Below, piece after piece: positions 18,180-32,272 of a stretch of 34,373 bases of DNA; position 1 is the first letter of the stretch; each line of letters starts with the position of its first letter. This DNA is from a virus: positions 1-34,373 of IMG/VR virus record IMGVR_UViG_3300050821_004902; one strand, given 5' to 3'. The position numbers and the translations under genes were made by a program. The notes under the pieces were generated by a model that was not told the origin of the DNA, did not search any database, and saw only the letters and a program-made list of their open reading frames with translations.

Positions 18180-20084
18180 TTACTGCACTCCGCGGCTGCG
18201 GAATTTCCGCTTCCGGTCGGGAGCGAGCGACGTCAGGCTTTGCTTCGTGCGGTTGATGGCCTGGGCGAGAAAGCCCAGGTCGCGATAGGTGACGGGATCA
18301 CAGACGTTCTGCAAACAGAACAGCGCGGCGTAGCAGTACACAGTGAGGTCGAGCGCCTCGTTCCGGTTGTAGGTTTTGACGTAGACCGCCTTCCGGGTCC
18401 GGGTGCGCTTGTCCCGGACGGTGATCTTCTTCTCGCCCACCAGCTGCTCGAAAAACTCCTCGGTGACCCGCTCATGGAAGTGAATGAAGCCGGGGCCGGG
18501 CTGCGGGATCTTCAACCGCGAGAACACGCGGTCCTTCGCGGCATAGGTCGCGATCGTGAACAGCCGGACGCCGTGTTTTTTCGCCGTCGCCTCAGCGACC
18601 AGGCCGGGCTTGCTGAGGTAATCAACGCCCTTGATCGCATACACGCGGCGGCGCGCGCCCTGGCGCGGGAGCACGAAGTCGTAGACGGAGTCAGCCTGGT
18701 TGCCGGAGTCGACGAAGGTGATCGCGGGCGTGAGCATCGCGCCGCTCTGGTGCTGGCGCTGCTCCAGCAGAAAATCATCGGCCTGGTCCCACGTGCTCTC
18801 GAGTCCCGGATCGTCCCAGATGATGCGGTGCTCGATCAGCCAAGCCTCTTCCCCCGCGCCGAACCCCATGAGTAAACATTCCAGCCGGTTCGCTTGCACG
18901 TCGATCGCACCGACAAGCACCGCGCAATTCGCGGGCACCGCCGCGGCGTAGGGCTCCTGGCGCTTCAGCAGCGCGTTCGCGTTGAAGGTCTCGCCCTGCT
19001 CTTCCCAGGTTTCGCCCAGGCGGAGATTGATGAACGCTTTCAGCTTCTCCGGATTTTCCTGCGCCTCCGTCCACTCGATCGCCAGTTCAGACCAGACGTC
19101 GTTCCGCCACGCGGCATACAGCGCGTTGATGTAGAACCCAACGATGCTGCGCCGCTCGGGGAATTTCGCAACCCACTTCCCACCGGCCAGCATGCTGCGC
19201 TTGTAGCGCTCCTCGATGCCCTTCCGACAGCCGCGGCAGAGGAAACGAACGGAATCCGGAACAGGGTCCCCGTCTGCGTTCTTCTCCCAGATCAGCAGGT
19301 ACTCGCCCGTGTCCGGATCGCGCCAGAGCAGCGGCTGCATCTCCCCACAGAACGGGCAGGGCACGTGGAACATCTGCTGGCTGCTGCGTTCGAAGTCGCG
19401 ATCGACGCGGCTGAGGCCCTTGGGCTTTGCTGGCGTCGAACCTTTCAGGATCTTGGCGTCGGGATAGGTGTCGGTGCGGCGCGTCGCGATTTCAATCGGG
19501 TCGCCTTCACCGTCGACGTCCTCGGGATACGCATCCATCTCGTCGAGCAGCACGATCGGGACCGGATCGCCGCGCAAGCCCTTGCCGGACTGCGCCCCGG
19601 TGAGCTTCAGGAACCCGCCGTCAAACTCTTTCAGCAGCTGCGTGTTGCCGCCCTTGCGGGAGACGTTCTCGCGCACCTTGGCGCGGAGCGACGGGCACGC
19701 CTCGATCATCGGAGCGATACGCTTCCGCGAATAGCCCTTGGCGTCGCCTTCCGCGGGCTGCACCAGCAGCATCGGGCGCGGGTCGTGGTCGATGAAGTAC
19801 CCCACGATGTTATTCAGAACACCGTCCGACCAGCCGATCTGCGTGCTTTTTTTGCAGACGATCTCGCGCACCTCGGGATCTAGGAGCGCGTCCATCATGG
19901 CGTCTTGGTAGGGTTCGGAAACCCAGCGACCAGGCCGGTTGCTGGTGCCCTTCGGAAGGATGCGGTTCTCAGCGGCCCACTGGCTGATTTTTAGGAACGC
20001 CGGAGCGTTGAAGTGCTCGCTTATCTTTTGATCCGACTCCCACAGCGCCGTCTGTTGTTCCGGCAGTAGAGTTACGGTCGCCAT
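18180..20084 (-). CDS. terL: Terminase large subunit, GpA family
   Basis: 634 aa, the usual length for GpA-type packaging motors. The ATPase has a Walker A-like segment (CKKSTQIGWSD, about 77-87), Walker B (IVLLDEMDAY, 177-186), and a coupling motif (KGSTPAK). A zinc-ribbon pair CPFCG (243-247) and CRGC (283-286) interrupts the motor domain as in lambda gpA relatives. The nuclease domain shows acidic residues in GAIDVQANRLE (392-402) and FVDSGNQADSVYD (457-469). It cuts the concatemer at cos or pac and drives DNA into the prohead. The start overlaps the small terminase by 116 nt. Confidence 0.95.
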   Translation of the reverse strand: MATVTLLPEQQTALWESDQKISEHFNAPAFLKISQWAAENRILPKGTSNRPGRWVSEPYQDAMMDALLDPEVREIVCKKSTQIGWSDGVLNNIVGYFIDHDPRPMLLVQPAEGDAKGYSRKRIAPMIEACPSLRAKVRENVSRKGGNTQLLKEFDGGFLKLTGAQSGKGLRGDPVPIVLLDEMDAYPEDVDGEGDPIEIATRRTDTYPDAKILKGSTPAKPKGLSRVDRDFERSSQQMFHVPCPFCGEMQPLLWRDPDTGEYLLIWEKNADGDPVPDSVRFLCRGCRKGIEERYKRSMLAGGKWVAKFPERRSIVGFYINALYAAWRNDVWSELAIEWTEAQENPEKLKAFINLRLGETWEEQGETFNANALLKRQEPYAAAVPANCAVLVGAIDVQANRLECLLMGFGAGEEAWLIEHRIIWDDPGLESTWDQADDFLLEQRQHQSGAMLTPAITFVDSGNQADSVYDFVLPRQGARRRVYAIKGVDYLSKPGLVAEATAKKHGVRLFTIATYAAKDRVFSRLKIPQPGPGFIHFHERVTEEFFEQLVGEKKITVRDKRTRTRKAVYVKTYNRNEALDLTVYCYAALFCLQNVCDPVTYRDLGFLAQAINRTKQSLTSLAPDRKRKFRSRGVQ

Positions 20085-20589: not shown

Positions 20590-20778
20590 TTACTCCTTCC
20601 CGCGTTTCTTCTTCGGCGGGTCGGTGATCGAGAGGGAGATGTTCACGGAGACGGTGGTCTCCACTTTCACGCTGAACCCCGACGACTCCAGCGCGCGCTT
20701 GATTCTCAGAACACGGTCGGACGTCATCGCGACGTCGTACAGATTGATCGGGTCGATGGGCGTCTGTTCGTCGCTCAT
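20590..20778 (-). CDS. Small protein, 62 aa, upstream of terminase
   Basis: 62 aa whose ATG overlaps the stop of the 235-aa gene (ATGA at 20778-20775). It starts MSDEQTPIDPINLYDVAMTS and has an amphipathic stretch then Val/Ser-rich beta sequence (VKVETTVSVNISLSI) and a very basic end (PPKKKRGKE). No family is recognised. It could be a small DNA-binding or packaging-associated protein; the position next to terS is the only clue. The 39-nt gap to terS contains only its SD. Confidence 0.6.
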   Translation of the reverse strand: MSDEQTPIDPINLYDVAMTSDRVLRIKRALESSGFSVKVETTVSVNISLSITDPPKKKRGKE

Positions 20779-21482
20779 GCGGCCTCCTGCGGGAGCAACG
20801 GTGCGACTCCAGCCAAATGCATCCGAGCGGCGGCGATGCCTTCAGGCCCGTCGAGTGCAGCTGATTCCATCAGCGATGGCAACCCGCCCTCGATCGAGGC
20901 CAAGACCTCGGCGCGCGTCGCCGCGCGGCCCTCGCAATACCAGAACACTTCCTCGGGATCGCCCACCTTGACCAGGAACCCGTCCGCTCCCGATTCTTTC
21001 GGGGCCGGAACGATGCGATAGCTGCGCGTCACCCAAACCAGAGCGACGCCGGGGTTGCGGCGGAGCATGATGCCTGGCGCGGGCTCATACTTTTCCGGTA
21101 GATCGTTCTCGCGGCGCACCACTGCGGGCTTCACCAGGAACGGACAGCCGCGCGCGGAGAACGTCGCGCAGTCCAGGTGCGACGGCGGCTCGGACGAAAT
21201 CCGGTTGATGGCGCACATCGGGCCGATCACGAACGCCATGTAGCGGCCCAGCATCGCGCCGCACACCCAGCAGCGCTTCTGCTTGATCGCGATGTAGCGC
21301 TTGCGGGAGTCCACCACGCGGAAGTCAGAATGGTCGACGGCGAGATCCGGGGGCTTCTCGCAAGGGGAGCCGTCCGGGTGAAACCACTGCACAAACCACG
21401 GGACGGGAAACCCGCGCGCGTCGACCGGGAGATTCCGCATGCGGACGGGCAGCGGTGGAAGGTTCGGGTGAAGGGTGTTCAT
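20775..21482 (-). CDS. Cys-containing phage-conserved protein of unknown function, 235 aa
   Basis: 235 aa from the ATG at 21482 with AGGAGG 5 nt upstream. The middle of the protein has a strongly patterned block: CWVCGAMLGRYMAFVIGPMC, then HLDCATFSARGCPFL, about residues 70-115, i.e. at least five Cys plus His in a spacing that suggests zinc binding. I have seen this block in uncharacterised proteins of phages and plasmids from Gram-negative bacteria, without known function. N- and C-terminal parts are less distinctive; the C-terminus includes VFWYCEGRAATRAEVLASIE. It lies just upstream of the terminase genes, so it may affect packaging or late transcription. Confidence 0.8.
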   Translation of the reverse strand: MNTLHPNLPPLPVRMRNLPVDARGFPVPWFVQWFHPDGSPCEKPPDLAVDHSDFRVVDSRKRYIAIKQKRCWVCGAMLGRYMAFVIGPMCAINRISSEPPSHLDCATFSARGCPFLVKPAVVRRENDLPEKYEPAPGIMLRRNPGVALVWVTRSYRIVPAPKESGADGFLVKVGDPEEVFWYCEGRAATRAEVLASIEGGLPSLMESAALDGPEGIAAARMHLAGVAPLLPQEAA

Positions 21483-21763
21483 GAGTGCCTCCTGTGGTCT
21501 TGTAGGAATGCCGTCTCTAACTTCTTGTTGGTCACAGCGATCGCGGGCTTGGGCAATGGGCCGACCGTGGCCACGATTCGCTGCGCTCGCATGATGCACT
21601 CCTGGCAGAAAATCTCAACGTTCTTGCCCTTGTCGACCGTCGACCAGCCCAGGAGCTCGGCGACGGCGTCGGTCTCGTCGCGGCGCTTGTGATGGCCGGT
21701 AAGCTCGATCTTCGCGCCGCACTCCCCGGCGCACTCCAGAGTGTGTGTATAGAGCAGGCTCAT
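21479..21763 (-). CDS. Small zinc-ribbon-like protein, 94 aa
   Basis: 94 aa from the ATG at 21763, which overlaps the stop of the methyltransferase gene (ATGA), and whose own stop overlaps the next gene's start region. It has two Cys pairs (ECAGEC near the N-terminus and FCQECI about residue 55) separated by a polar helix, like a zinc ribbon or treble clef. The C-terminal 25 residues are basic. No known family; possibly a regulator or a cofactor for the adjacent methyltransferase. Confidence 0.7.
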   Translation of the reverse strand: MSLLYTHTLECAGECGAKIELTGHHKRRDETDAVAELLGWSTVDKGKNVEIFCQECIMRAQRIVATVGPLPKPAIAVTNKKLETAFLQDHRRHS

Positions 21764-23088
21764 TTGCGTTTTGCCTTTCTGCCGGTGTGAAGTTCCCAGC
21801 GGCGCACGATGACGTCGGCGTACTTCGGCTCGATCTCGATCGTCCGGCACTTGCGCCCGGACTTCTCGCACGCCATCAACGTCGAACCGGAGCCGCCGAA
21901 CGGATCGAGCACCAGCTGGCCGGGCTCGCTGCTGTTATTCAGGAACCGGCTCACCAGAGCGATCGGCTTCATGGTGGGGTGTTCCGCATTTGCGGACGGT
22001 TTGTCGCAGTAGAGCACGCTGGTGGGAAGCTCCGACACCTGAAGCTCGGCCCCGCGGAAGATCAGCAGGCGATCGCCGATCAGAATCTTCCACGCGCCGT
22101 CCGCGGTGCGCTCCACCGTCGTGTCCGGCCCCAGATCCTGCACCGTCGTCTGCTTGCGACCGCCGTAAAACTTGTGGGACCCGGTCGGTTTCCAGCCGTA
22201 CAGCACCGGCTCGTGCTGCCACTGGTAATCGGAACGCCCCATCACCAACGAATTCTTCCTCCAGATCAGGCACCCGGCGAGCTTGAACCCCGCCTCACGG
22301 AACGTGCGGCGGAAGTTCAAGCCCTCGGTGTCCGCGTGCGCGACGTAGATGGACGCGCCCCCTCTGGCACAGCGGAACATTTGCTCGAACGCGCGGAGCA
22401 GGAACCCGCGGAACGCCTGGTCCTTCTGGTCGTCGCCCTTAATCGTGCCCGCGCTGCCCTCATAGGCCACGTTGTACGGCGGATCGGTGAAAATCAGGTC
22501 GGCGCGCTCGTCTCCCATCAACTTGTCGAGGTCCTGGCCCTTGGTTGCGTCGCCGCAAAGCAGCCGGTGGTCGCCCAGGGTGATCAGATCGCCCAGTTTC
22601 GTTTCCGGAACAGCCGGAGCCGGGGGCACTACGTCCTCGTCGGCCTCCGGTACCAGGGAATCAGCGCTGAGGATGGCCAGCACCTCGTCCGTCTCGAACC
22701 CGGTAGGGATCAGGTCGAAGTTCGCGGCCCGTAGCAGCTTCAATTCAGACGCGAGCAGGGGCTTCACCCAGGTCGCCTCTTCGCCGGTGCGGTTGTCGGC
22801 CAGCCGGTAGGCCCGCTCCTCGTCCGGCGTGAGGTTATCAGCCACGCGCACCGGGGCCTCGGACATCCCCAGGCGGAGCGCAGCGCCGCGGCGCGTGTGA
22901 CCGGCGAGGATAACCCCCTTTTTATTCACCACGATGGGCTGCTGCCAGCCGAACGTGCGGAGCGAGGCCATCACCTTGTCGATCGCCGCCTCGTTGTCAC
23001 GGGGGTTGTTCTGGTAGGGGATGATCTTCTCGAGGGGCCAGACTTCAACCTTCCATGTTTCGGCCTTCTTCGCTGCTACTGTTACCAT
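21760..23088 (-). CDS. DNA methyltransferase with N-terminal ParB/Srx-like domain
   Basis: 442 aa, AGGAGAG 8 nt upstream of the ATG at 23088. Residues about 15-100 are ParB-like (IIPYQNNPRDN, then VILAGHTRRGAALRLG). The catalytic domain has DPPY at 202-205 (N6-adenine or N4-cytosine amino-methylation) and the SAM-binding DPFGGSGSTL at 395-404; the order DPPY before the SAM motif is that of beta-class enzymes. Target recognition probably lies between these (about 215-385). No endonuclease is adjacent, so it is an orphan phage methyltransferase, which could protect phage DNA or alter host expression. Specificity cannot be read from sequence. Confidence 0.93.
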   Translation of the reverse strand: MVTVAAKKAETWKVEVWPLEKIIPYQNNPRDNEAAIDKVMASLRTFGWQQPIVVNKKGVILAGHTRRGAALRLGMSEAPVRVADNLTPDEERAYRLADNRTGEEATWVKPLLASELKLLRAANFDLIPTGFETDEVLAILSADSLVPEADEDVVPPAPAVPETKLGDLITLGDHRLLCGDATKGQDLDKLMGDERADLIFTDPPYNVAYEGSAGTIKGDDQKDQAFRGFLLRAFEQMFRCARGGASIYVAHADTEGLNFRRTFREAGFKLAGCLIWRKNSLVMGRSDYQWQHEPVLYGWKPTGSHKFYGGRKQTTVQDLGPDTTVERTADGAWKILIGDRLLIFRGAELQVSELPTSVLYCDKPSANAEHPTMKPIALVSRFLNNSSEPGQLVLDPFGGSGSTLMACEKSGRKCRTIEIEPKYADVIVRRWELHTGRKAKRK

Positions 23089-23108
23089 TTTCAGAACTCT
23101 CCTTATTA

Positions 23109-23291
23109 TTAGGGCCTCTGCCCGGCCTTGATAGGGAACGGGGTCAGCAATCCGCAGCTGCAGCGAGCGACAATGAAGTTCCCAGCCCTCTCGACCACGG
23201 TGGTCTTCGGTAGGCGCTTATCGCAGTGGAAGCACCTCGGCTGACCATCGACGTCGAAATCCGCGAGGGTGAAGTGGCGGCGGCGGATCAT
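23109..23291 (-). CDS. Small zinc-ribbon protein, 60 aa
   Basis: 60 aa (start MIRRRHFTLADFDVDGQPRC), ATG overlapping the stop of the 93-aa gene (ATGA at 23291-23288). CFHC at about residue 20 and CSCG about 25 residues later form a likely four-Cys zinc ribbon, with a Thr/Val strand between. It is basic and could bind DNA or RNA. It lies directly upstream of the methyltransferase, 20 nt from its start; a controller role is possible but not shown. Confidence 0.7.
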   Translation of the reverse strand: MIRRRHFTLADFDVDGQPRCFHCDKRLPKTTVVERAGNFIVARCSCGLLTPFPIKAGQRP

Positions 23292-23569
23292 TCGCGGAAA
23301 TGTCCCCATTCTCGTTCGAGCGCGATTTGCTCTGCCTTCGTGTTGGCATCCTCGGCCTCGCGAGTGGCCGCTTTGTTTTTCCATACCTCTCCGACTGGCC
23401 GGTAGCCCCCGACCAGAACCGTGCCGCGAGTCTCGGTCTCATCCCAGACGATCGCCACGTCGCGGCTGAGCAGGTGCTTCGACACTTCTCGCACAAGTTG
23501 CTGATCGTTGTCGCAGTCGACCGTCCGCCGAACGTTGTCTCTGCCCACGTTCACCAATTCGTAGAGCAT
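23288..23569 (-). CDS. Unknown protein, 93 aa
   Basis: 93 aa, with a strong GGAGGAAAGG sequence upstream of the ATG at 23569 and a run of eight T residues just before that. The protein starts MLYELVNVGRDNVRRTVDCD, with a beta-rich middle (DETETRGTVLVGGYRPVGEV) and a helical, Glu/Lys/Ala-rich C-terminus (EAEDANTKAEQIALEREWG). No family recognised. It is the first gene after a 250-bp non-coding stretch, so it probably heads the transcript that covers the methyltransferase. Confidence 0.7.
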   Translation of the reverse strand: MLYELVNVGRDNVRRTVDCDNDQQLVREVSKHLLSRDVAIVWDETETRGTVLVGGYRPVGEVWKNKAATREAEDANTKAEQIALEREWGHFRE

Positions 23570-23820
23570 TCCTTTCCTCCATGCAAAAAAAACTGACTAT
23601 GTCTGGTGAGGGGTCGCGGTCGCCGTCACCTGCGACGCCGCCCGCCCCGCCAAAGGACCCTGAGAATACACAAGCGACCCATACCTAGAGAACCCGCGCG
23701 GGCTCGGGGGGCCGAGCACAGCACACACACACACAGTGCGTCCACACACACACCCGGATGGTGCGAGCGCTGCCCTTAGAGCAACGTCGCCATACAACAC
23801 GCGCACCACAGGGAGGGGGT
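23570..23820 (-). other. 250-bp intergenic region: hairpins, CA-repeat, T8 tract
   Basis: This stretch holds CCCGCGCGGG (23693-23702) merging into GCTCGG/CCGAGC (23702-23717) with a GGGG loop, a CA dinucleotide run (23717-23753, interrupted), a GGTGA/TCACC stem near 23605-23632, and a T8 tract on the minus strand at 23585-23592. I see no consensus promoter. A 75-codon frame starting at 23824 overlaps the Xre stop in ATGA fashion, but much of it is simple repeat, so I do not call it a gene. The region probably separates two transcription units and may carry regulatory sites for the Xre regulator. Confidence 0.5.
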
Positions 23821-24096
23821 TCATGCTGCTGCGACCGCGGCCTTTCTCTTGCGGGGTTCCACGCTGGCATCGAGGGCCTCGTACCGCTTCAGGAACTCAG
23901 AGCCGGACTTGAAACCGAACGCATCCGCGAGCGAGATCAGCTGTGGCAGGTTTAAGCGCGCTTCGCCGTTCTCAATTGCGAAACAGCGCGCGAGGGTCAT
24001 ATCGGCCTTCTTGGCGAGTTGCCTGAGGGACAGACCTCTTGCCTCTCTGGTCTTACGAACGTAATCGGCGAACTTCAGTTTGGAGAATCTACGCAT
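23821..24096 (-). CDS. Xre-family HTH transcriptional regulator, 91 aa
   Basis: Residues about 5-70 form a Cro/Xre-type helix-turn-helix (YVRKTREARGLSLRQLAKKA DMTLARCFAIENGEA-type order, then LPQLISLADAFG), followed by a linker and basic tail (EPRKRKAAVAAA). I prefer the ATG at 24096, which is coupled to the stop of the DUF6166 gene at 24089; a GTG at 24111 has GGAG only 1 nt away. It could be a phage regulator or a controller for the downstream methyltransferase unit. It is not obviously the lysogeny repressor, since it lacks a C-terminal peptidase or dimerisation domain. Confidence 0.85.
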   Translation of the reverse strand: MRRFSKLKFADYVRKTREARGLSLRQLAKKADMTLARCFAIENGEARLNLPQLISLADAFGFKSGSEFLKRYEALDASVEPRKRKAAVAAA

Positions 24097-24442
24097 ATTG
24101 TTTCTGTTCACGCTCCTTTTCTATTTTCAGAACAGCATCCATGACTTGAGCCGCCGTCAGATCCCAGCCCTTTTCCCTGGGCAGCTTCGAGATAACGGCC
24201 CACTTGAAAGCCTGATGGAGTTGAACGGCTCGTTCATCGTCGCCCAGGCTATCCGCGAGGATCGCTAGAGCTAATTGCGCAGGGCCTGAGCCGCCATAGC
24301 CCCACTCAAAACCAGTTGGTGAGTGATTCCACAAGTCGAGCCGCGGTGGGAGTTTTCTGCCATCGCCCTCGTCATCTTCGAAGCTCACCCACACGATGCA
24401 TCCGTTCCCGGTTCGCAGTCCGGAATAGACTTTTTTGCTCAT
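24089..24442 (-). CDS. DUF6166-type protein, 117 aa
   Basis: 117 aa. The segment NHSPTGFEWGYGGSGPAQLA (about residues 44-63) followed by LAILADSLGDDE is a hallmark of the DUF6166 proteins found on phages, plasmids and conjugative elements; function unknown. The start at 24442 (MSKKVYSGLRTGNGCIVWVS) agrees with the family N-terminus and overlaps the upstream stop (ATGA). The C-terminus is helical (WDLTAAQVMDAVLKIEKERE). Confidence 0.85.
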   Translation of the reverse strand: MSKKVYSGLRTGNGCIVWVSFEDDEGDGRKLPPRLDLWNHSPTGFEWGYGGSGPAQLALAILADSLGDDERAVQLHQAFKWAVISKLPREKGWDLTAAQVMDAVLKIEKEREQKQYA

Positions 24443-24684
24443 TGCTTTTGGGCCTCTCTCGCCCTGTGCCGTTCGTCTTGGCAGTGCAGGACCTGCATTC
24501 TCCAGTCGATAAACCAATCGAGAGAACAATCAGCAGACGCGAGGATCGCGATGATGTTCGGGTCCCATTCGTCGAATGGGAAGTGCTCACACTTCCACGA
24601 AAACAGAACACCGTCCGGGTGCTTGTAGACCACCAGGAGCTTCGAGTGCGGAGCAACTTCGAGATTGCAGTTCGTGCATCTCAT
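24439..24684 (-). CDS. Small Cys-containing protein, 81 aa
   Basis: 81 aa, overlapping both neighbours by ATGA. MRCTNCNLEV at the N-terminus gives a CxxC pair; further Cys residues occur in WKCEHF and ADCSLDW, and HCQDERHR near the end. It may be a small zinc-binding protein. The middle contains a hydrophobic core (IIAILASADCSLDWFIDW). No known family. Confidence 0.65.
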   Translation of the reverse strand: MRCTNCNLEVAPHSKLLVVYKHPDGVLFSWKCEHFPFDEWDPNIIAILASADCSLDWFIDWRMQVLHCQDERHRAREAQKQ

Positions 24685-24983
24685 GCCCTTTTTTCCTCTT
24701 CGTGAAACCGTAGATCGTGATCGAACGGTTCATCGCGGAGCGCGTGGATTGGAGCGCGCATTTTGCCGGTCGGCCATCCCATGCAGACCTCGGTGATCTC
24801 TGCGTTCGACTCCAGGCAGTCGTCGCAGATAACTGACAGCGCGCCATTCATCGGCAGATTGCACGCGACGCATCCCCAGCCGCTCCCAGGGACGGGCGCG
24901 GGCTTTGTGTGCATGATCAGGTTCCGCACGTTCTCCGTGCCCTGGCACGCGCAACACTTCCCGAGGTCGATATCCTTGTTCAT
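24681..24983 (-). CDS. Cys-rich zinc-finger-like protein, 100 aa
   Basis: 100 aa; ATGA overlaps with both neighbours. Three Cys groups are visible: KCCACQG (about residue 10), GCVACNLP (about residue 37) and VICDDCLES (about residue 52), spaced like a double zinc ribbon. The acidic C-terminus (RDEPFDHDLRFHEEEKRA) ends the protein. Similar short proteins are frequent in phage early regions and have no assigned role. Confidence 0.7.
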   Translation of the reverse strand: MNKDIDLGKCCACQGTENVRNLIMHTKPAPVPGSGWGCVACNLPMNGALSVICDDCLESNAEITEVCMGWPTGKMRAPIHALRDEPFDHDLRFHEEEKRA

Positions 24984-25192
24984 GCCGTCTCCAGGTAGTT
25001 GTCGAGATACCTACCGAGCTCGTACTTCGCGATGAGCGCTTCCATCGCCGGTATGAGAAGCGCGAGGTTCGTAGGGTCGGCCCGAACGACCGCATCCGCA
25101 AACGCGCAGAGGAAACCGCCGTGCTGGCCGCGGCCCTGCGAAACCTCCGTGAAGATGTGACGCATCTGCGACGTATTGTACGTTGAACACAT
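24980..25192 (-). CDS. Small protein, 70 aa
   Basis: 70 aa. After MCSTYNTSQMRHIFTEVSQ the sequence is mainly one helical domain (CAFADAVVRADPTNLALLIP AMEALIAKYEL-type). ATG at 25192 follows a short intergenic space with direct repeats and a candidate promoter. Its stop overlaps the next gene. Function unknown; the helical 'ADPTNLALL...LIAKYEL' layout recurs in small phage proteins that I cannot name. Confidence 0.65.
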   Translation of the reverse strand: MCSTYNTSQMRHIFTEVSQGRGQHGGFLCAFADAVVRADPTNLALLIPAMEALIAKYELGRYLDNYLETA

Positions 25193-25197
25193 GATCC

Positions 25198-25230
25198 GTT
25201 CCGTTTACCACACTTCTGTTCCGTTTTCAA
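25198..25230 (-). promoter_or_regulatory. Direct repeats with candidate leftward promoter
   Basis: GTTCCGTTT occurs at 25198-25206 and 25218-25226, exactly 20 bp (two helical turns) apart. On the minus strand TTGAAA (25230-25225) and TAAACG (25207-25202) are spaced by 17 bp with TG one base before the -10. It would drive the 25192-23821 gene block. This is by-eye evidence. Confidence 0.35.
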
Positions 25231-25231
25231 G

Positions 25232-25897
25232 TCAGCGCGACTTATAGGCCCGGTCGAACTCGCGATCGAACACCTCGTTAAACACGCGCTCCGCGATGCC
25301 CAGGAAGTCGTAGCGCCGCTTCAGGGCGGGACGCTGGATGAACAGATACATCGCGCGGATCACGTCGCCGGTTTTCTGGAACAGGCCGCGGGGCGTCGTG
25401 CCATGCTTGACGTTGGGGAGCGTGAACAGCCCACCGTCCTGCTCGGTGACCAGCTGCGTCGTGCCGTCTTTCAGCACCCGCGGGTGCAGGTTGATCTTCG
25501 ACAGCTGCAGCGCCGCGACCACGGGATCTGAGAACGACGGACGCGCGGCCCCACCCGTCACCGGCACACCTACGCTCTTGCCGGCCACGGGCTCTTTGAA
25601 TCCGCCCTCGACAAACTGGTCGAGCAGGGTACGGTTCTTGTGGTCGATGCCCATCTCGCCGTACACCTGCTGCGGCCCGATGCCCTTGAACACCTTGGCG
25701 AACGTGAAGATCTTGATCAGCCGATACATGAAATCGTTCTTGCGGATGGTGAAGCGCCGGTCAAGCTCGGCGCGTTCCTCGCGCTGGATCTCCTGCATGG
25801 TGCGGTTGATGGCGGTCGCAGTTGAGTACGCGAGCCGTTTCGATTCCAGTAACGTCTTGGCCTCAAGGCCGCGGATGTCGATATCGAACTTGATCAT
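25232..25897 (-). CDS. Virion-type (tail/head-tail) protein located in the early region, 221 aa
   Basis: The true start is the ATG at 25897 (ATGA overlap with the Fis-like gene). The order SKRLAYSTATAINRTMQEIQ, RRFTIRKNDFMYRLIKI, VPVTGGAARPSFSDPVVAAL, GLFQKTGDVIRAMYLFIQRP and a final FDREFDRAYKSR resembles uncharacterised phage structural proteins normally encoded among head-tail genes. Here it lies in the middle of the early genes, next to a Fis-like regulator. It may be a structural protein displaced by recombination, a pseudo-virion factor used early, or a protein with a different job; the sequence cannot decide. Reading frame and length look intact. Confidence 0.6.
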   Translation of the reverse strand: MIKFDIDIRGLEAKTLLESKRLAYSTATAINRTMQEIQREERAELDRRFTIRKNDFMYRLIKIFTFAKVFKGIGPQQVYGEMGIDHKNRTLLDQFVEGGFKEPVAGKSVGVPVTGGAARPSFSDPVVAALQLSKINLHPRVLKDGTTQLVTEQDGGLFTLPNVKHGTTPRGLFQKTGDVIRAMYLFIQRPALKRRYDFLGIAERVFNEVFDREFDRAYKSR

Positions 25898-26154
25898 TTG
25901 GCGCGCTCTTTTCTGCTGTGCCTTTCGAGATAGCCGTCCTGCACTCTCTCGGACCAGCCCCAATCCTTGATGCGGGCCACTAGACTATTGCGGTGAATTT
26001 CCAGTTCGTCTGCAGCCTGCGATTGATTGAAATCGTTCCTCTCGAGTGTCCACCAGATATACCACTGCTCGAATTGCGTGACCGCCATCGTAAGGCCAAC
26101 ACCGCGCGTCACCGTCAAGTTGTCGGCAGAGCGCCGCGGCGCAATGGTCGTCAC
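25894..26154 (-). CDS. Fis-type HTH DNA-binding protein, 86 aa
   Basis: Residues about 37-67 (LERNDFNQSQAADELEIHRN SLVARIKDWGW) match the C-terminal helix-turn-helix of Fis/NtrC: 'G-N-x-x-x-A-A-x-x-L-x-I-x-R-N-x-L-x-x-x-I'. The rest is short. An internal ATG at 26088 would give a 64-aa version starting MAVTQFEQWYIWW, near the typical size of a small Fis-like protein. The gene overlaps both neighbours by ATGA. It is a plausible late-gene or copy-number regulator; no partner ATPase domain is present. Confidence 0.8.
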   Translation of the reverse strand: MTTIAPRRSADNLTVTRGVGLTMAVTQFEQWYIWWTLERNDFNQSQAADELEIHRNSLVARIKDWGWSERVQDGYLERHSRKERAK

Positions 26155-26396
26155 GGGTTGACCTCGCGCTTCATACGTTCGAACCAGTTCGCGATCCGGT
26201 GCGCCTCTCCGGATAAGAAGTGCTGCAGCCGCTCGTTCTCCAGCGCGCCCAGCTTCGCGGCGTAAGGATGGTTCTGAATCCGGAACAGGAAATCACCGCA
26301 CGTCACGTGCAGGCAGTTGCCGAGCACCGTCATCTGCACGGGCTCAACTTTCACAGGTGTAACCGGGTGTCGAACTTCGACCTCGCGCCTGATCAT
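26151..26396 (-). CDS. Unknown protein, 81 aa
   Basis: 81 aa from ATG 26396 (ATGA overlap with the next gene upstream), starting MIRREVEVRHPVTPVKVEPV. It has a small beta-rich core (QMTVLGNCLHVTCGDFLFRI) and a helical C-terminus (ALENERLQHFLSGEAHRIAN). No family recognised. The gene is part of the coupled string that leads into the Fis-like regulator. Confidence 0.6.
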   Translation of the reverse strand: MIRREVEVRHPVTPVKVEPVQMTVLGNCLHVTCGDFLFRIQNHPYAAKLGALENERLQHFLSGEAHRIANWFERMKREVNP

Positions 26397-26614
26397 GGTT
26401 TCCTCCTGAACTGCAGGACGTCGGGGCAGCTGGCCCAGTGCGCCTCCCACAACGCGCCCTCGCTGCCTGCGACCATTGAGAACGGCATCCGCTTCCCATT
26501 CGGCGTGTGGTACCAGCGAAGCAGCGCGGAGCACGTCTTCCCCGTGCAGCGGGCCTCGAAGCGAAACTCATAGCCGCCCTGCACCAGTTCTGCATCTGTG
26601 GCTGGGAATTTCAT
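26393..26614 (-). CDS. Small Cys/His protein, 73 aa
   Basis: 73 aa starting MKFPATDAELVQGGYEFRFE (ATG at 26614 overlapping the previous stop). CTGKTC is followed by WYHTPNGKRMPFSMV and then HWASCPDVLQFRR, so C-x4-C and H-x3-C pairs with a 'TPNGKxMP' turn; this pattern is common in small phage zinc-finger proteins. Role unknown. Confidence 0.7.
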   Translation of the reverse strand: MKFPATDAELVQGGYEFRFEARCTGKTCSALLRWYHTPNGKRMPFSMVAGSEGALWEAHWASCPDVLQFRRKP

Positions 26615-26808
26615 CCGGCCCGCCTCAGCTTCAGCGCCTCGATACATCGCTTGCAGGTGACAGCGGATTTCAGCAGCGTCCAGCGCTCACGGCGAAGGTT
26701 CAACGCCCTGGGCCGCGCTGCGCAAAGGGGAGACACCGCACCGTCGCTCCGGATCTTGTCCGCGAAGTGGTACGGTTTGTGATCGTGGTAGGGATCGTCT
26801 CGGCTCAT
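26611..26808 (-). CDS. Small basic Cys/His protein, 65 aa
   Basis: 65 aa beginning MSRDDPYHDHKPYHFADKIR, ATG at 26808 overlapping the stop of the previous gene. It contains a His cluster (HDHKPYHF), SPLCAARP and a final VTCKRCIEALKL, i.e. a probable zinc site, with a very basic middle (RALNLRRERWTLLK). The VTCKRC ending recurs in small phage proteins of unknown role. Confidence 0.65.
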   Translation of the reverse strand: MSRDDPYHDHKPYHFADKIRSDGAVSPLCAARPRALNLRRERWTLLKSAVTCKRCIEALKLRRAG

Positions 26809-26963
26809 TTCGCCCTCCTCAGCGCGTTCCTGCTGGTGACCGCGCGGAACCCGTCCTCGAATTCCACCAGGCAACTGTTCATCGCGCCGCGCACCAGGAC
26901 AGCGCAGCGCTGGCCCTTGCGCCCCATCCGGTTCCACGCGTAGCGGTACGGGAATGCATTCAC
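26805..26963 (-). CDS. Small protein, 52 aa, GTG start
   Basis: I start this gene at the GTG at 26963, which overlaps the stop of the hidden 49-aa gene (GTGA) and has GGGAGG about 8 nt upstream. The frame is open much further upstream (to 27161), but that part overlaps two other genes. The sequence NRMGRKGQRCAVLVRGAMNS then CLVEFEDGFRAVTSRNALRR matches small phage proteins with a 'GxKGxxCxVLxRG...NSxLVEFEDG' pattern. It may form an SH3-like barrel. Function unknown. Confidence 0.7.
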   Translation of the reverse strand: MNAFPYRYAWNRMGRKGQRCAVLVRGAMNSCLVEFEDGFRAVTSRNALRRAK

Positions 26964-27109
26964 CAGATGAACCTCCCGCATATGCGACAGCGGTATTTTC
27001 GGAACGGCTTCTTGCTTCCGATGCCCACGTGATTTCTCAACTCCCTGCAGCACGCATTTCTCCGCAACTCTTTCGTCGGGTCCGGCCACTTCAACACGCG
27101 CCGCCTCAT
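26960..27109 (-). CDS. Hidden small zinc-binding protein, 49 aa
   Basis: A 49-codon frame missed by simple length cut-offs. Its ATG (27109) overlaps the preceding stop (ATGA), and its TGA (26962-26960) overlaps the next GTG start (GTGA). The product starts MRRRVLKWPDPTKELRRNAC and has a CC pair and a CRIC motif near the end (KYRCRICGRFIW). It is basic and probably binds zinc. Perfect coupling at both ends is the key argument. Confidence 0.65.
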   Translation of the reverse strand: MRRRVLKWPDPTKELRRNACCRELRNHVGIGSKKPFRKYRCRICGRFIW

Positions 27110-27324
27110 GCGACGCGCCTCGATTGCACGAACACCCGGTACCCTTCCAGGCGCTCGACATCTGCCGAGCGCGGCGGCTTCACGTGATCGCCGGCATCGT
27201 CCAGCGGATCAGCGAAGTCACGCTCGAACGAGACGCGCGCGGCGTCGTCGACCAGGTTGTTCGTGCTCCAGGCCCGATGGGCTTTCGCCTTTGCGATCGC
27301 GCGTTGGTACTCGTCTGCGTTCAT
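27106..27324 (-). CDS. Small protein, 72 aa
   Basis: 72 aa from ATG 27324 (ATGA overlap with the DUF1376-like gene). It begins MNADEYQRAIAKAKAHRAWS and is helical and charged, with an acidic middle (FERDFADPLDDAGDHVKPPR). No family recognised. It belongs to the coupled early gene string. Confidence 0.6.
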   Translation of the reverse strand: MNADEYQRAIAKAKAHRAWSTNNLVDDAARVSFERDFADPLDDAGDHVKPPRSADVERLEGYRVFVQSRRVA

Positions 27325-28226
27325 GCGATTTCGCCTTTGGGGTTGATGTTGGTTTTGGTGTTGCCCTTTCGGTTTTGCCACTCGCGGAGCTTTTGCTTTT
27401 GCTCTTGCCTTCGTCTCTCCAACTCACTCGTCGTCGGTTGGTCGAACACGGACTCCGCCTTTTTTTTTAGAGATTCCAGGCTCGATGTTTCGTGCGGAAC
27501 GCTTTCCACAATTTCCACTGTTTCCACAGGGCTTACTACGGTTGAAATATGAACAGAATCTTCCACATGCACCGGCCCCTCTGGCTTCTGGCTCTCTGGC
27601 TTTCTGGCTTTCTGAGCAGTGCGAACGGCACTGCCATTTGCACTGCGATCGGCAGGACTTCTGGCAGAAGTCTCCTCGCTGCAATCGCTTGCGTCGGACC
27701 CGAGCGGGAGCACCTGCTGCGGCTCTCGATCGAGGCCTTTTTCCTTCACCCACTGATCTAACTCTCGGCACGTCCTGCAGTTAGGATTGCTCACCGCCCC
27801 CGCGCCGCATTCTGGGCACACGTCGGGCGGGTGAACCGGTCGCGTGCGAGCGGCGCTGCGACTTGCACTGCCGTTTGCACTGCTGTTGGCAGAGCCAGTC
27901 GCAGGAGCGCGCCCGCGATAACGCTTTTCCGCATTCTGCCGGGCGAGGTCGCTCTTCGCTTTTTCCTTCTCCATCCGCTTCGAAAAAAGGCGATCGCCTC
28001 GAAGCTCGAAAAACGGCTGGCAATACGGCAGGGAGTTGGTGACGCGGTGCAGGGGCACGCGGGTCTTGCGCGAGATCTCCTCCGGCGCGGCGGGGCAGGA
28101 ACCCTCGATGCAGCAGACGCACCACATCTTGATCGAAAGCAGCATCGCGGCGTCGGGGGTGTTGTCGACGTCGGGATCGGTGAGAAAGTCGCGCGCCCAG
28201 AATTTAAACCAGGGGTTCTCCGCCAT
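27321..28226 (-). CDS. DUF1376-like replication-initiation-type protein, 301 aa
   Basis: The start (MAENPWFKFWARDFLTDPDV) and the block MLLSIKMWCVCCIEGSCPA up to RLFSKRMEKEKAKSDLARQN correspond to DUF1376 proteins, whose N-terminal winged-helix-like domain is common in phage replication O-type initiators. After residue 110 it becomes low-complexity (ANSSANGSASRSAARTRP), then a probable zinc site (CPECGAGAVSNPNCRTC) and a second low-complexity stretch (RSANGSAVRTAQKARKPESQ), finally a helical, Gln/Lys-rich tail. The start overlaps the preceding stop (TGATG). Probably recruits the host helicase or binds origin DNA; a helicase partner is not visible here. Confidence 0.75.
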   Translation of the reverse strand: MAENPWFKFWARDFLTDPDVDNTPDAAMLLSIKMWCVCCIEGSCPAAPEEISRKTRVPLHRVTNSLPYCQPFFELRGDRLFSKRMEKEKAKSDLARQNAEKRYRGRAPATGSANSSANGSASRSAARTRPVHPPDVCPECGAGAVSNPNCRTCRELDQWVKEKGLDREPQQVLPLGSDASDCSEETSARSPADRSANGSAVRTAQKARKPESQKPEGPVHVEDSVHISTVVSPVETVEIVESVPHETSSLESLKKKAESVFDQPTTSELERRRQEQKQKLREWQNRKGNTKTNINPKGEIA

Positions 28227-28483
28227 CACCTCACCAGCCGCATCTGGCGGAGATCCGCCTGCAGTCGTCCCTTGAGCACAAGCTCGCTGAGCACATCCTC
28301 GAAGTCGTCGACCGTCGCATCGACCGTTCCTCCGAAGGGACCGCTCGCGGATTCGAACTCAACCCAGCGCTGCGGGATGGTGTTGTAGTTGACGCCGCTC
28401 TCCGGGCGCACCAGGCCCTCGGCGTCGGCGTGATGTTCCAGAAACCGCAACAGGCTCGCGGCTCGGTCGGTCAGGTCGGGCAT
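28226..28483 (-). CDS. Unknown protein, 85 aa
   Basis: 85 aa with an ideal AGGAGGAC ahead of the ATG at 28483. It begins MPDLTDRAASLLRFLEHHAD and contains SASGPFGGTVDATVDDFEDV, then a final VLKGRLQADLRQMRLVR. The layout (helix, short polar middle, helix) suggests a small winged-helix-like or coiled-coil protein. Function unknown. Confidence 0.65.
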   Translation of the reverse strand: MPDLTDRAASLLRFLEHHADAEGLVRPESGVNYNTIPQRWVEFESASGPFGGTVDATVDDFEDVLSELVLKGRLQADLRQMRLVR

Positions 28484-28509
28484 TCTTGTCCTCCTTGTGA
28501 AGAAACGGA

Positions 28510-29016
28510 TTAGGCTGCGGATATTCGTTGTGCCCTCCGATTCGCAGCGTTAATGGCTCGGCGAGTGTTCTGTTGCTGCTCCGACCGCGTGGCCCATCGG
28601 CAGTTGCCCGGCTCGTAGTTGCCGTCAGTCTCGCGACGGTCGAGCGTCGTTCCTTCCGGGCGCGGACCCATGTCGGCATAGAACGCCTCGAAGGATTGCA
28701 GCCAGCGATCGCAGACCTTGATCCCTCGTCCGCCGTAGTACTCGTAGTGAGCCTTGTGGGGGTTTGTGCAGCGCTCGATCATTGCCCGCCATGACGCGTA
28801 CTCTCGACTCTCACTCATCCCGTGCGTCTTGGCGCGTTGACATCCACAGCCGGTGGACTTTCCCAGGCGCAACGAAACTGCTAAAACGCTGCGCTCGATA
28901 CCACAGTCACATTTGCAATTCCAGAACGCCCCGTTGCGCGGGTCCATGCGATCAAACCCAATCACGTTCCAACTTCCGAAACGTGTGCCCGTAAGATCAA
29001 CTCGCGGCCTGCCCAT
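28510..29016 (-). CDS. HNH-type homing endonuclease-like protein, 168 aa
   Basis: 168 aa with the phage-typical order: LTGTRFGSWNVIGF, CKCDCG, a STGCGCQ pair, then MIERCTNPHKAHYEYYGGRG, KVCDRWLQSFEAFYADMGPR and finally TLDRRETDGNYEPGNCRWAT. This belongs to a family of phage zinc-ribbon/HNH-like proteins related to free-standing homing endonucleases. It follows the DUF1064 gene directly (ATG 1 nt after its stop, GAGG upstream). Unknown target; most such genes are selfish insertions. Confidence 0.85.
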   Translation of the reverse strand: MGRPRVDLTGTRFGSWNVIGFDRMDPRNGAFWNCKCDCGIERSVLAVSLRLGKSTGCGCQRAKTHGMSESREYASWRAMIERCTNPHKAHYEYYGGRGIKVCDRWLQSFEAFYADMGPRPEGTTLDRRETDGNYEPGNCRWATRSEQQQNTRRAINAANRRAQRISAA

Positions 29017-29367
29017 TCAGACCTCCTCGACTTGCCAGGCTCCGCGCTGCTTGCGGGCTAAATAAAACGTGAACATGGGGAACATCTGCGCCGCGGCGAT
29101 GATCTTCACCCGCCCGTCATCGCGCATGAAGCCTTTGGTCTCGTAAAACCAGATCAACCCGCCTTCGCTCCCCTGCACCATGAAGTCGGGTGTGTAGCGC
29201 AGATCCGGGCCGAGCTTCAGGGTCATTGCTTCGAAATGCACGCACGTGAGCTCGCCCGCGTGCCTTCGCAATTCCAGTCGCTCGAAAAACTCCGCTTCCA
29301 ATTTGTTCATCTCACCGGCGCGGTGATGTCCGACTCTGCCGCGCGCGTGCGGTGAGAAGCGAGCCAT
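29017..29367 (-). CDS. DUF1064 PD-(D/E)XK-like nuclease, 116 aa
   Basis: 116 aa from the ATG at 29367, overlapping the previous stop (TGATG). LRYTPDFMV (about residues 55-63) and a downstream WFYETKGFMRDDGRVKI give a PD...(E)xK active-site pattern, with a preceding EAEFFERLELRR helix containing Glu, as in DUF1064 proteins of phages. These are thought to be Holliday-junction or structure-specific nucleases. Its place near ERF fits a recombination module. Confidence 0.85.
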   Translation of the reverse strand: MARFSPHARGRVGHHRAGEMNKLEAEFFERLELRRHAGELTCVHFEAMTLKLGPDLRYTPDFMVQGSEGGLIWFYETKGFMRDDGRVKIIAAAQMFPMFTFYLARKQRGAWQVEEV

Positions 29368-29699
29368 CAGCACGCCTCCCAAACTCTGGCCTTGCGGCCC
29401 GTCGCCAACGTCTCGCACCTGCCGCTGAACTTCACCAGGCGGAGCGTGACCAGTTCGCTGCGACGCGTTCTGATTCCAGAGGGCGAGAGATTCAAGTGGG
29501 CCGGGTCCTCGATCACGCGGAGCGCCAGGCGCTCGTCGGTCATGGGGCCGAACTTCCGGAACAGGCCCAGGACGTACTGCTGCGACTCGCGGATGCCGCG
29601 CACGCTGGCAGCTGCAGCCTTGCTCGTGCTGGGATCGGTGCGCCGCGCGTGAGCGCGGGGCTCGTTGGTGAACAGGCCGATCTGGGCGTCTGAGTTCAT
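29367..29699 (-). CDS. Winged-helix phage protein, 110 aa
   Basis: 110 aa. RTDPSTSKAAAASVRGIRES and LSPSGIRTRRSELVTLRLVK are typical of a winged-helix protein present in very many phages and prophages, with the HTH between them. The N-terminus is polar (MNSDAQIGLFTNEPRAHARR). Its role is unknown; the fold suggests DNA binding. The ATG overlaps the stop of the doubtful 83-aa gene and its own stop overlaps the DUF1064 start. Confidence 0.85.
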   Translation of the reverse strand: MNSDAQIGLFTNEPRAHARRTDPSTSKAAAASVRGIRESQQYVLGLFRKFGPMTDERLALRVIEDPAHLNLSPSGIRTRRSELVTLRLVKFSGRCETLATGRKARVWEAC

Positions 29700-29947
29700 G
29701 AAAGAAACCGAAGGTCGGGAGAATCGCGAGCACCGGGGCCGTACTGTTTGGGATCTGGCAACCCGTCAGGAACGTGCTCTCCGTGTGCTTCATTGACCGG
29801 GCCGCGACTGCTGAGCGCGTCAGGAAAAACACTCAGACAGTCGCGACCGGACAATGGCTCTGGCGATTCTCCACGACCTCCTCCATTGCGGGTCAGCCGT
29901 GCTCCCGCAATTCCTTCCCCGATGGGAGCGGTTAGCGCGCCCGCCAT
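29696..29947 (-). CDS. Doubtful 83-aa frame
   Basis: A frame of 83 codons (start MAGALTAPIGEGIAGARLTR, ATG at 29947) overlaps the membrane-protein gene by 16 nt and the winged-helix gene by ATGA. It is Gly/Pro/Arg-rich without recognisable domain. There is no SD, but coupled overlap could supply ribosomes. Listed as a low-confidence CDS because the otherwise empty 230-nt stretch holds nothing else that I can see. Confidence 0.3.
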   Translation of the reverse strand: MAGALTAPIGEGIAGARLTRNGGGRGESPEPLSGRDCLSVFPDALSSRGPVNEAHGEHVPDGLPDPKQYGPGARDSPDLRFLS

Positions 29948-30219
29948 CGGGTATCGCCGTGGTTCCCTCGAACTACAGACGCGATGGCAACGGCACGCCT
30001 GCAGTCGCCCACGACAATCCTCAAAACTGAGTACTTCACAAACCCCGGCACACGGAGCGCGCGCGCCGCGGAGCCGAGAGCGATGCCGATGATGAAGCCC
30101 AGCAGGAACGCTGCGAACATCGCCTTGACGTCCCACATGCGCAGCGATCGCGACGGCTGGCTGGGCCAGCCCGCGATCGCGCGCCGCTTGGTCACCACGT
30201 GTCCGCGATAGAACTCCAT
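29932..30219 (-). CDS. Small membrane protein, 95 aa
   Basis: 95 aa from the ATG at 30219 (overlapping the ERF gene stop as TGATG). The N-terminal part is basic (MEFYRGHVVTKRRAIAGWPS), then a transmembrane segment with GxxxG-like spacing (MFAAFLLGFIIGIALGSAAR) and a basic C-terminus. No signal peptide; probably an inner-membrane single-pass protein. No family recognised. Confidence 0.65.
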   Translation of the reverse strand: MEFYRGHVVTKRRAIAGWPSQPSRSLRMWDVKAMFAAFLLGFIIGIALGSAARALRVPGFVKYSVLRIVVGDCRRAVAIASVVRGNHGDTRWRAR

Positions 30220-31211
30220 CAGTGCCTCCCGAATAGATCCGCGGCGCTCGGCTGTGACGGCGGAGCCTCCAACTCTCGCTCCAAGGCATCGCCGGGCATA
30301 TCGTGTGTTACGGGTACGCTTCCTGCGCGTTCCTGCGGCGCTGCAGCGGCGCGGGCAGGCTCTTGGGCCTTGACGCCGGGCTGCGCTGCCGTCGCCGCCT
30401 GGGGGCTCCGGGGCGCGGCTGCTGTTGACGTTTGAGGGGTGGTCGGCGGAGCCGCGAGCAATTTCTGCAGCACGGGGCACGGCAGGCCGTCCGGACCCTT
30501 CCCCATGTCGGCCTCGAACTCGATGAGCTTTCCCGTGATACCCGCGAGCTTCAACTCGACGTCGGTCTTCCGCACCCAGAAGCGCGCGCCCTTGACGAAC
30601 AGCCAGCTGCCGTCCTGGTGCGCCTCGATCTTCTGCAGGATGCCGGTGATTTTCTTGGGCCACACGTTCTCGACGCGCGCGGGCTGCTGCCGTTCCGAGC
30701 GCGAAGCGCTGCGCGCGCGGGAGCCTTCCTCGGTGCCGGTGTCGCGGTCGTTGTCCGCGCCGTCATCCGGGATCTGGAACTGCGTCGCGAGGAAACTCTT
30801 CATCGCCGCGGTCGCAGCCTTCGCCAGATTCTTGTCGCCCGAATCGGTGCCGACGCCCGGCCACGGGATCGATTCCTCGTAGCCGGTCTCAGCGTCCATG
30901 AACACGGCGTCGTACCAGACCGTTACCTCGCGCTGCAGGTTGTTGTTGCGGCTTTGGTATTCGCGCCAGTGCAACTCGGGATCGGGAAGCCACTTCAGGA
31001 ACACGCCGTTCCGGGCCAGCACCTTCCTGGTCGCAGCGACGATGTCGCTGGCGCGAACGTAGTCATAGCCCTGCTCTTTGTTGCGCCCGCTTTTTGGAAC
31101 AGGCTCAATCTCGCCCAGGACCTTCACGAGCTTCGCGGCCAGCCGCGCCTTGAGGGTGCGGATGCCGAAGTCAGAGTCCTCCGACACGCTTGGTGTGATC
31201 GCAGTCGACAT
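30219..31211 (-). CDS. ERF-family single-strand annealing protein with C-terminal extension
   Basis: 330 aa. Residues about 20-150 match the ERF superfamily: KLVKVLGEIEPVPKSGRNKE, DYVRASDIVAATRKVLARNG and GDKNLAKAATAAMKSFLATQ in the expected order. ERF proteins anneal complementary single strands in phage recombination. A second compact segment (about 185-255, KKITGILQKIEAHQDGSWLF to ITGKLIEFEADM) is beta-rich and might be an OB-like domain. The C-terminus is Ala/Pro/Gln-rich and ends DLFGRH. Partners nearby: the coiled-coil gene upstream and DUF1064 downstream. Confidence 0.9.
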   Translation of the reverse strand: MSTAITPSVSEDSDFGIRTLKARLAAKLVKVLGEIEPVPKSGRNKEQGYDYVRASDIVAATRKVLARNGVFLKWLPDPELHWREYQSRNNNLQREVTVWYDAVFMDAETGYEESIPWPGVGTDSGDKNLAKAATAAMKSFLATQFQIPDDGADNDRDTGTEEGSRARSASRSERQQPARVENVWPKKITGILQKIEAHQDGSWLFVKGARFWVRKTDVELKLAGITGKLIEFEADMGKGPDGLPCPVLQKLLAAPPTTPQTSTAAAPRSPQAATAAQPGVKAQEPARAAAAPQERAGSVPVTHDMPGDALERELEAPPSQPSAADLFGRH

Positions 31212-31774
31212 CAGTTCACCGGTGCTTTCTCAGCGTCGGTGGTGGTGGCCGGCTGCGTTTTATCTTTCCCCTTGCCTTTGAACTCGGCGAGAGTTTCGGC
31301 CGCTTTTTTGCCTCTGGCCTCCGGGTTCTCATCGTCGAACAGATTCTCCTGGCGCTCCTCTTCGGCCATCGCCTCCGTCGCCAGCACCGTTCCGGTTTTG
31401 GGATGCAGGACGGATTTCTGCCCGACCTTCGGCTCGTTGTATTTGACCGGGCACTCCACCTCGGTCATCTGATACCCCAGGTTGATCTGCTGCGCGAGCT
31501 TGGTGATCGAAGCGCGGTGGGCTTTGATGTCGGCGTTGTACTGCGACAGTTCCTCGGCCTTATCGTTCTCCGCGTTGTGAAGGTTCTCGACCGCCTGGGC
31601 CAGCTGGTCGCTGAGCACGGCTTTCTCCTCGAGCGTGAGATCCACGCGGAGTTGCCGCTTCACGTGCGTGGGACGGTGCTTCAGTCCCTCGAGGGCCTGG
31701 GCCTCAGCCCCGGCCTCTGCCAGTACGCTGTCAGGCGGTAAGCTGGAATTCTTCTTGCTCTTGCTCTTTGCCAT
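31211..31774 (-). CDS. Coiled-coil protein next to ERF, 187 aa
   Basis: 187 aa, AAGGAG upstream of the ATG at 31774. The sequence RPTHVKRQLRVDLTLEEKAV introduces a helical coiled coil (DQLAQAVENLHNAENDKAEE, SITKLAQQINLGYQMTEVEC), followed by VKYNEPKVGQKSVLHPKTGT. This family is often placed beside recombination proteins in phage genomes and has no settled function. The stop overlaps the ERF start (TGATG). It probably assists ERF-dependent recombination or replication. Confidence 0.75.
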   Translation of the reverse strand: MAKSKSKKNSSLPPDSVLAEAGAEAQALEGLKHRPTHVKRQLRVDLTLEEKAVLSDQLAQAVENLHNAENDKAEELSQYNADIKAHRASITKLAQQINLGYQMTEVECPVKYNEPKVGQKSVLHPKTGTVLATEAMAEEERQENLFDDENPEARGKKAAETLAEFKGKGKDKTQPATTTDAEKAPVN

Positions 31775-32066
31775 TGTTGATCTCCTTCGCTTTGGGATCG
31801 CATACACAAATTCGGAACGGTTGATTGGGGAAGGGCTCGACGAAGCCCACGCAAAAGCAGAAACAGTATTTGCACTCACAGCACGTGGGAGCCTGCACCG
31901 GGATCTCGTGCGACTTGCCGCTGCTGGCTCCGGTTTTCGCGTAGGAGTAAGTCCGCGGTGGCAGGTGACTCCCGCGCTTGCACCCGCACCGACCGCACGG
32001 GTCCTCGGGAGTCCCACGTGACATGAGAAGCCGCTGCGCCTCGCGAAATTGCTCCGCGGTGATCAT
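31731..32066 (-). CDS. Cys-rich protein, 111 aa
   Basis: 111 aa from ATG 32066, running 44 nt into the next gene in another frame. CGRCGCKRG (about residue 25) and a later cluster TCCECKYCFCFCVGFVEPFP with ICVCDPKA contribute about 11 Cys, enough for two or three metal sites. The rest is polar. No known family. The SD is weak and expression may depend on coupling with the preceding gene. Confidence 0.7.
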   Translation of the reverse strand: MITAEQFREAQRLLMSRGTPEDPCGRCGCKRGSHLPPRTYSYAKTGASSGKSHEIPVQAPTCCECKYCFCFCVGFVEPFPNQPFRICVCDPKAKEINNGKEQEQEEFQLTA

Positions 32067-32068
32067 GA

Positions 32069-32272
32069 TCAGTAGGGTTTCTTTCCTTTCCGCGTCGCCG
32101 GGGGTTGAGGTCCCCGCTTTCTGTCGCTGTGCTGCTTCTTCACGTAAGGACAGGCCACACCGTCCTCGCAAAAAACGCAGGTCGGAATGCCGAGCACCAG
32201 GCGCTCGGTGTAGCAGGTGTGCCCCATGTTCCTGCACATAGCGCACGGCATCCCTTTGGGGTGGTCGCTCAC
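32069..32272 (-). CDS. Small Cys-rich protein, 67 aa (GTG start)
   Basis: The best start is the GTG at 32272, GTGA-overlapping the previous stop, with GGAG 5 nt upstream. GMPCAMCRNMGHTCYTE and TCVFCEDGVACPY make a likely zinc-binding core in the first 42 residues. The C-terminus is basic (KRGPQPPATRKGKKPY). Function unknown. Confidence 0.7.
   Translation of the reverse strand: MSDHPKGMPCAMCRNMGHTCYTERLVLGIPTCVFCEDGVACPYVKKQHSDRKRGPQPPATRKGKKPY

Follow-up and report, generated by a model that had tools for sequence, protein, structure and literature searches.

The early region of this phage raises the question of whether its small, Cys-rich genes act together as one set, or whether they are separate genes that happen to share a region. 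An earlier note had proposed the former, describing at least ten tightly coupled small genes with Cys/His patterns as an undescribed group of host-takeover or transcription-modulating factors. The window analysed here is the whole of IMG/VR record IMGVR_UViG_3300050821_004902, a linear stretch of 34,373 bases with no near DNA relatives among 50,697 phage records. A 44.9 kb phage, G001 (L041, L056 and L062), is collinear with it at protein identities of 50-92%.

The window is a temperate tailed phage. Its genes lie on the minus strand and lead from the integrase through the early region to the terminase and structural genes, with a tyrosine integrase at the contig end (33573..34361) and a GpA-type terminase large subunit at 18180..20084; the label 'early' for the small-gene region is inferred from gene content. 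In particular, the region after the integrase encodes an Erf-type single-strand annealing protein (30219..31211, minus strand), an HNH endonuclease, a Holliday junction resolvase-like protein (29017-29367; phrog_190 match, E = 2.3e-10), an HTH protein and a DNA methylase (N6_N4_Mtase; 21760..23088, minus strand) with a ParB_N-like N-terminus. The HNH gene (28510-29016; phrog_374 match, E = 8.6e-62) is missing from G001, so it may be a mobile insertion. Further, a gene at 25232-25930 matches a 'minor tail protein' family (phrog_1924, E = 6.6e-14) but lies in the early region, well away from the structural genes, and has the same placement in G001 and in locus L005. The 92-aa product of 32628-32906 aligns to the C-terminal part of the 284-residue family phrog_6978, and may therefore be a detached domain.

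Ten small coding genes and their Cys motifs

All ten genes lie on the minus strand, each is open from start to stop, and their composition is that of coding DNA, with GC3 values of 0.70-0.82 like those of this phage's other genes. The longest, g235 (20775-21482, 235 aa), has a single, treble-clef-like C71-C74-H102-C105 site and a C-terminal beta/helix part. Its neighbour g94 (21479..21763, 94 aa) carries a zinc-ribbon-like CxxxC ... CxxC pattern; g60 (23109..23291, 60 aa) has CxxC ... CxC; g81 (24439..24684, 81 aa) has CxxC-x25-C-x-H and two more Cys; g100 (24681..24983, 100 aa) has CCxC and CxxC-x11-CxxC; and g49 (26960..27109, 49 aa) has CC ... H ... CxxC. Toward the integrase, g111 (31731..32066, 111 aa) contains 11 Cys (CxxCxC ... 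CCxCxxCxCxC), and g67 (32069..32272, 67 aa), located between g74 and g111, contains CxxC-x5-C ... CxFCEDGVACP. The weaker cases are g73 (26393..26614, 73 aa; C-x4-C ... H-x3-C), which has three Cys and no CxxC, and g65 (26611..26808, 65 aa; H ... C ... CxxC), which lies between g52 and g73 and has just three Cys. The tight coupling reported for these genes is borne out, as most neighbours share 4-bp overlaps (for example, 20775-20778, 21479-21482, 24681-24684, 26393-26396, 26611-26614, 26805-26808, 26960-26963 and 27106-27109).

The window contains 23 small early genes (defined as those of at most 120 aa), eight of which encode CxxC, with 13 motifs in total. Shuffling within each protein yielded a mean of 3.0 motifs and a maximum of 10 in 5000 trials, and pooled shuffling a mean of 1.8 and a maximum of 8; the excess over shuffling is real. 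The small early genes hold 60 Cys in 1925 aa, compared to 60 in 6213 aa, with two CxxC motifs, in the structural half. Elsewhere, CxxC is found in 5 of 18 small early genes in lambda, 4 of 19 in phiC31, 3 of 37 in Bxb1 and none of 8 in BcepC6B. The window's 8 of 23 differs from these four phages pooled at p = 0.04, where the four were hand-chosen and their annotated small early genes were counted. This pattern is common, and the window lies toward its upper end, with a CxxC density that is nothing out of the ordinary for a temperate phage. A metallothionein-like zinc store was also considered and rejected: the proteins have few Cys each, at finger-like spacings.

Conservation of the Cys residues and the g235 and g100 families

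Searches of Pfam, PHROGs and NCBIfam gave weak or sub-threshold matches at most, including a phrog_5984 match spanning 21 residues of g73, and no description of these families was found in the literature; as had been suspected, the genes are essentially undescribed. A profile search of solved structures reached best E values of only 0.3-0.9 (MYND zinc fingers, for g100). When the nine genes other than g235 were used as one joint tblastn query, phages returned only weak g73 matches (a Geobacillus phage, E = 0.08) and plasmids returned none. Used as the sole query against viral contigs, g111 had no match, and its relative was later located in G001.

Eight of the ten genes yielded relatives, with none for g60 or g65 and a single one for g94. 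Across pairwise alignments that are not independent of one another, 41 of 42 Cys in the ten are kept, compared to 29 of 38 in other genes (Fisher p = 0.005) and to 469 of 667 other residues of the ten. Cys is a residue that is generally conserved. In particular, g94 keeps 4/4 Cys in its L004 relative, g73 3/3, g49 4/4 and g111 10/11 in G001, and g81 keeps 5/5 at 81-84% identity in two relatives, with a dN/dS of about 0.10. Five other viral contigs share the CxFCEDGVACP motif of g67 and have a second Cys/His finger after it. Pairwise dN/dS ratios of 0.10-0.40 for g81, g100, g73, g49, g94 and g235 place the small genes with a close relative under purifying selection. The Cys/His clusters suited to metal binding are conserved in most of the ten, in agreement with the earlier note. 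Homologues without the Cys, which it had named as evidence to the contrary, were found for g235 alone (loci L016 and L029); the other small genes with relatives keep nearly all of theirs.

From sequence comparison, g235 is a new and widespread family, absent from the family databases searched and carried on phages, plasmids and chromosomes, with relatives at 15 viral loci, in ten bacterial genomes of several phyla, in 37 plasmid records and in four Rhizobium phage records. In an alignment of 30 sequences, C71, C74, H102 and C105 are common to all except L016 and L029, with C74 replaced by His in one further sequence and C90 variable elsewhere among the relatives. L016 and L029 appear to represent a single Brevirhabdus lineage sampled twice. 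In them, the ligands C, C, H and C change together to D, T, R and T, and the rest of the protein is retained, including the adjacent Cys of MC and CPF. Their joint loss identifies the four as a single site, and also shows that the protein can do without it.

The AlphaFold2 model of g235 is confident (pLDDT 88, pTM 0.86) and positions C71 and C74 in a loop preceding a strand, and H102 and C105 at the start of helix 103-112, a predicted ligand layout that fits a treble clef and marks a candidate metal site. Compared to solved and viral predicted structures, the model has no significant match: Foldseek returned nothing at E ≤ 0.001, and the VIA-align rows, at Z ≤ 4.0, are scattered across long helices and unrelated proteins, below a meaningful level; such an absence of matches is no proof of a new fold. 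An HNH endonuclease was considered for its CxxC and HxxC, and g235 has no HNH match in Pfam or PHROGs. Outside close kin, g235 has no conserved neighbour, and the neighbours of its plasmid copies match no Pfam family. On the Pseudomonas aeruginosa plasmid pPALA50 (L033, 2651-6498), a gene for a 1106-aa protein with no Pfam family has its end overlapped by a g235 relative. One tentative and rather doubtful reading is that g235 is a new fold of mobile elements generally, found in phages, plasmids and prophages of many phyla, with a metal-site half that can be discarded as a unit and an unmatched beta/helix half. If so, its core of RGxPVPxF, FxxGPM, PP, CPF, RNPG and GR would be a binding or catalytic surface that serves a common mobile-element function.

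Similarly, g100 is a new and widespread family absent from the family databases searched; of its 12 viral loci, one lies in G001. Nine residues (C10, C11, C13, C38, C41, C53, C56, H89 and H94) are invariant in 13 sequences, and in some other phages g100 is joined to additional Cys domains. One such domain, CRxCGCTDxxxCPxGCYWVExDLCSxC, has no Pfam family and follows g100 in one phage and precedes it in another (L044, 3782-4396, and L049, on a contig shared with L002). The ligand layout and predicted secondary structure of g100 fit a treble clef, with no significant match to a solved fold; for its model, Foldseek returned nothing at E ≤ 0.001, and the VIA-align rows (Z ≤ 3.0) consist largely of small ribosomal proteins, plus one ZZ zinc domain, and are below a meaningful level. 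What had been a list of ten zinc-like ORFs yields two defined, conserved families, g235 and g100, with named candidate ligands.

Exchange of single genes between related phages

The proposal that the genes form one set of takeover factors is not supported as it was stated, since their joint occurrence is confined to three close kin: apart from L004, L005 and G001, loci identified via g235, g100 and g67 contain none of the other small genes. Within the stretch compared, G001 keeps g81, g100, g73, g49 and g111, and g235, g94, g60, g65 and g67 are absent. Compared to the other early genes, of which 16 of 21 are kept in G001, the 5 of 10 kept here do not point to significantly greater lability, this being a single comparison.

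The window and G001 differ by exactly one gene at g65 and again at g67, with ATGA/GTGA junctions. In G001, g52 overlaps g73 and g74 overlaps g111 directly, through 4-bp junctions like those of the window's extra gene. Exchange occurs at stop/start overlaps, and translational coupling is thereby preserved. At the position of g60, G001 has a PF24623 'phage zinc finger' protein (L041, 7743-8084; E = 4.5e-8) and another CxxC protein. L005 likewise has other Cys-rich genes in the region that corresponds to the g60 slot, among them one for a DUF6283 (PF19800) protein, and its g235-p62 pair is located elsewhere. The slots are refilled by different Cys-rich genes, and the ten are unrelated, singly exchanged accessory genes, in which related phages differ one at a time where coupled stop and start codons meet.

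Candidate roles and comparison with known systems

The best explanation, to which a probability of roughly 0.6 is assigned, is that these genes are interchangeable, stand-alone metal-binding cassettes, with zinc the most likely metal, and that each encodes what is probably a small metal-stabilised adaptor. About ten mutually unrelated genes would each supply a treble-clef- or ribbon-like domain, and would be gained, lost and swapped as one-gene cassettes between related phages. Each protein would work alone: a small, metal-stabilised fold would bind a single host partner, either a protein or a nucleic acid, and adjust it in early infection, as lambda Orf73 does with host RNA polymerase. The adaptor role is drawn by analogy, because neither model had an informative match in the fold searches.

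It is possible, if doubtful, that the genes instead encode accessory recombination or replication proteins like those of the lambda nin genes, which would bind DNA or aid the Erf, resolvase-like and HNH proteins. Those three proteins are their neighbours and CxxC is also found in lambda ninD, ninE and ninF; however, neither sequence nor fold comparison linked them to a DNA-binding family, and the small genes swap independently of the recombination genes. An anti-defence role, where each cassette blocks one host defence, is unlikely: it would explain turnover at defined slots and would suit the finding of g235 on both phages and plasmids, but the turnover is not significantly above that of other early genes. 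The lambda ral gene is likewise a small CxxC gene, and Ral alleviates restriction. There was no PADLOC match, which carries little weight since PADLOC lists defence and not anti-defence. Either role may apply to single members.

A coherent module whose members jointly act on host RNA polymerase or nucleases is improbable. The genes are clustered in one coupled region, and action on RNA polymerase is documented for individual phage zinc proteins, lambda Orf73 among them (PMC9239242), but the ten do not travel together beyond close kin, half of them are missing from a collinear phage, and none matches a transcription-factor family. A chance or gene-calling artefact is hardly credible, even with four of the ten under 70 aa and two having no relative, given the coding statistics, purifying selection, conserved Cys and motif excess, which refute it for g235, g100, g81, g73, g49, g94, g111 and g67, the evidence for g60 and g65 being their coding signal.

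The reading as interchangeable cassettes can be set against several known systems. The TraR finger is reported as CxxC-17-CxxC (PMC9239242), unlike the CxxC-x11-CxxC of g100, and TraR/DksA (PF01258) has no Pfam match in the ten at E values up to 10 for nine of them and 0.01 for g235; the late activators Ogr/Delta (PF04606) also have no Pfam match in the ten. PF24623 (Phage_zn_bind_8), a putative DNA-binding phage zinc finger, is the same kind of small phage zinc protein and has a member in the g60 slot of G001, although it matches none of the ten window proteins. DUF6283 is a Cys-rich small phage protein of the same region in L005, absent among the ten. The lambda nin region together with ral has a similar density of CxxC small genes in its early region; no sequence relation was found, and functions differ where known. 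Orf73 of lambda is a TraR-like C4 zinc-finger protein of the early left arm that inhibits host promoters via RNA polymerase and raises phage yield (PMC9239242). Like it, the proteins described here are small and Cys-rich, with putative C4 zinc fingers, and are encoded amid small ORFs in the early region of a temperate phage, and it serves as a precedent for their mode of action only. If the adaptor reading is true, phages would possess a pool of small, metal-stabilised binders that can stand in for one another.
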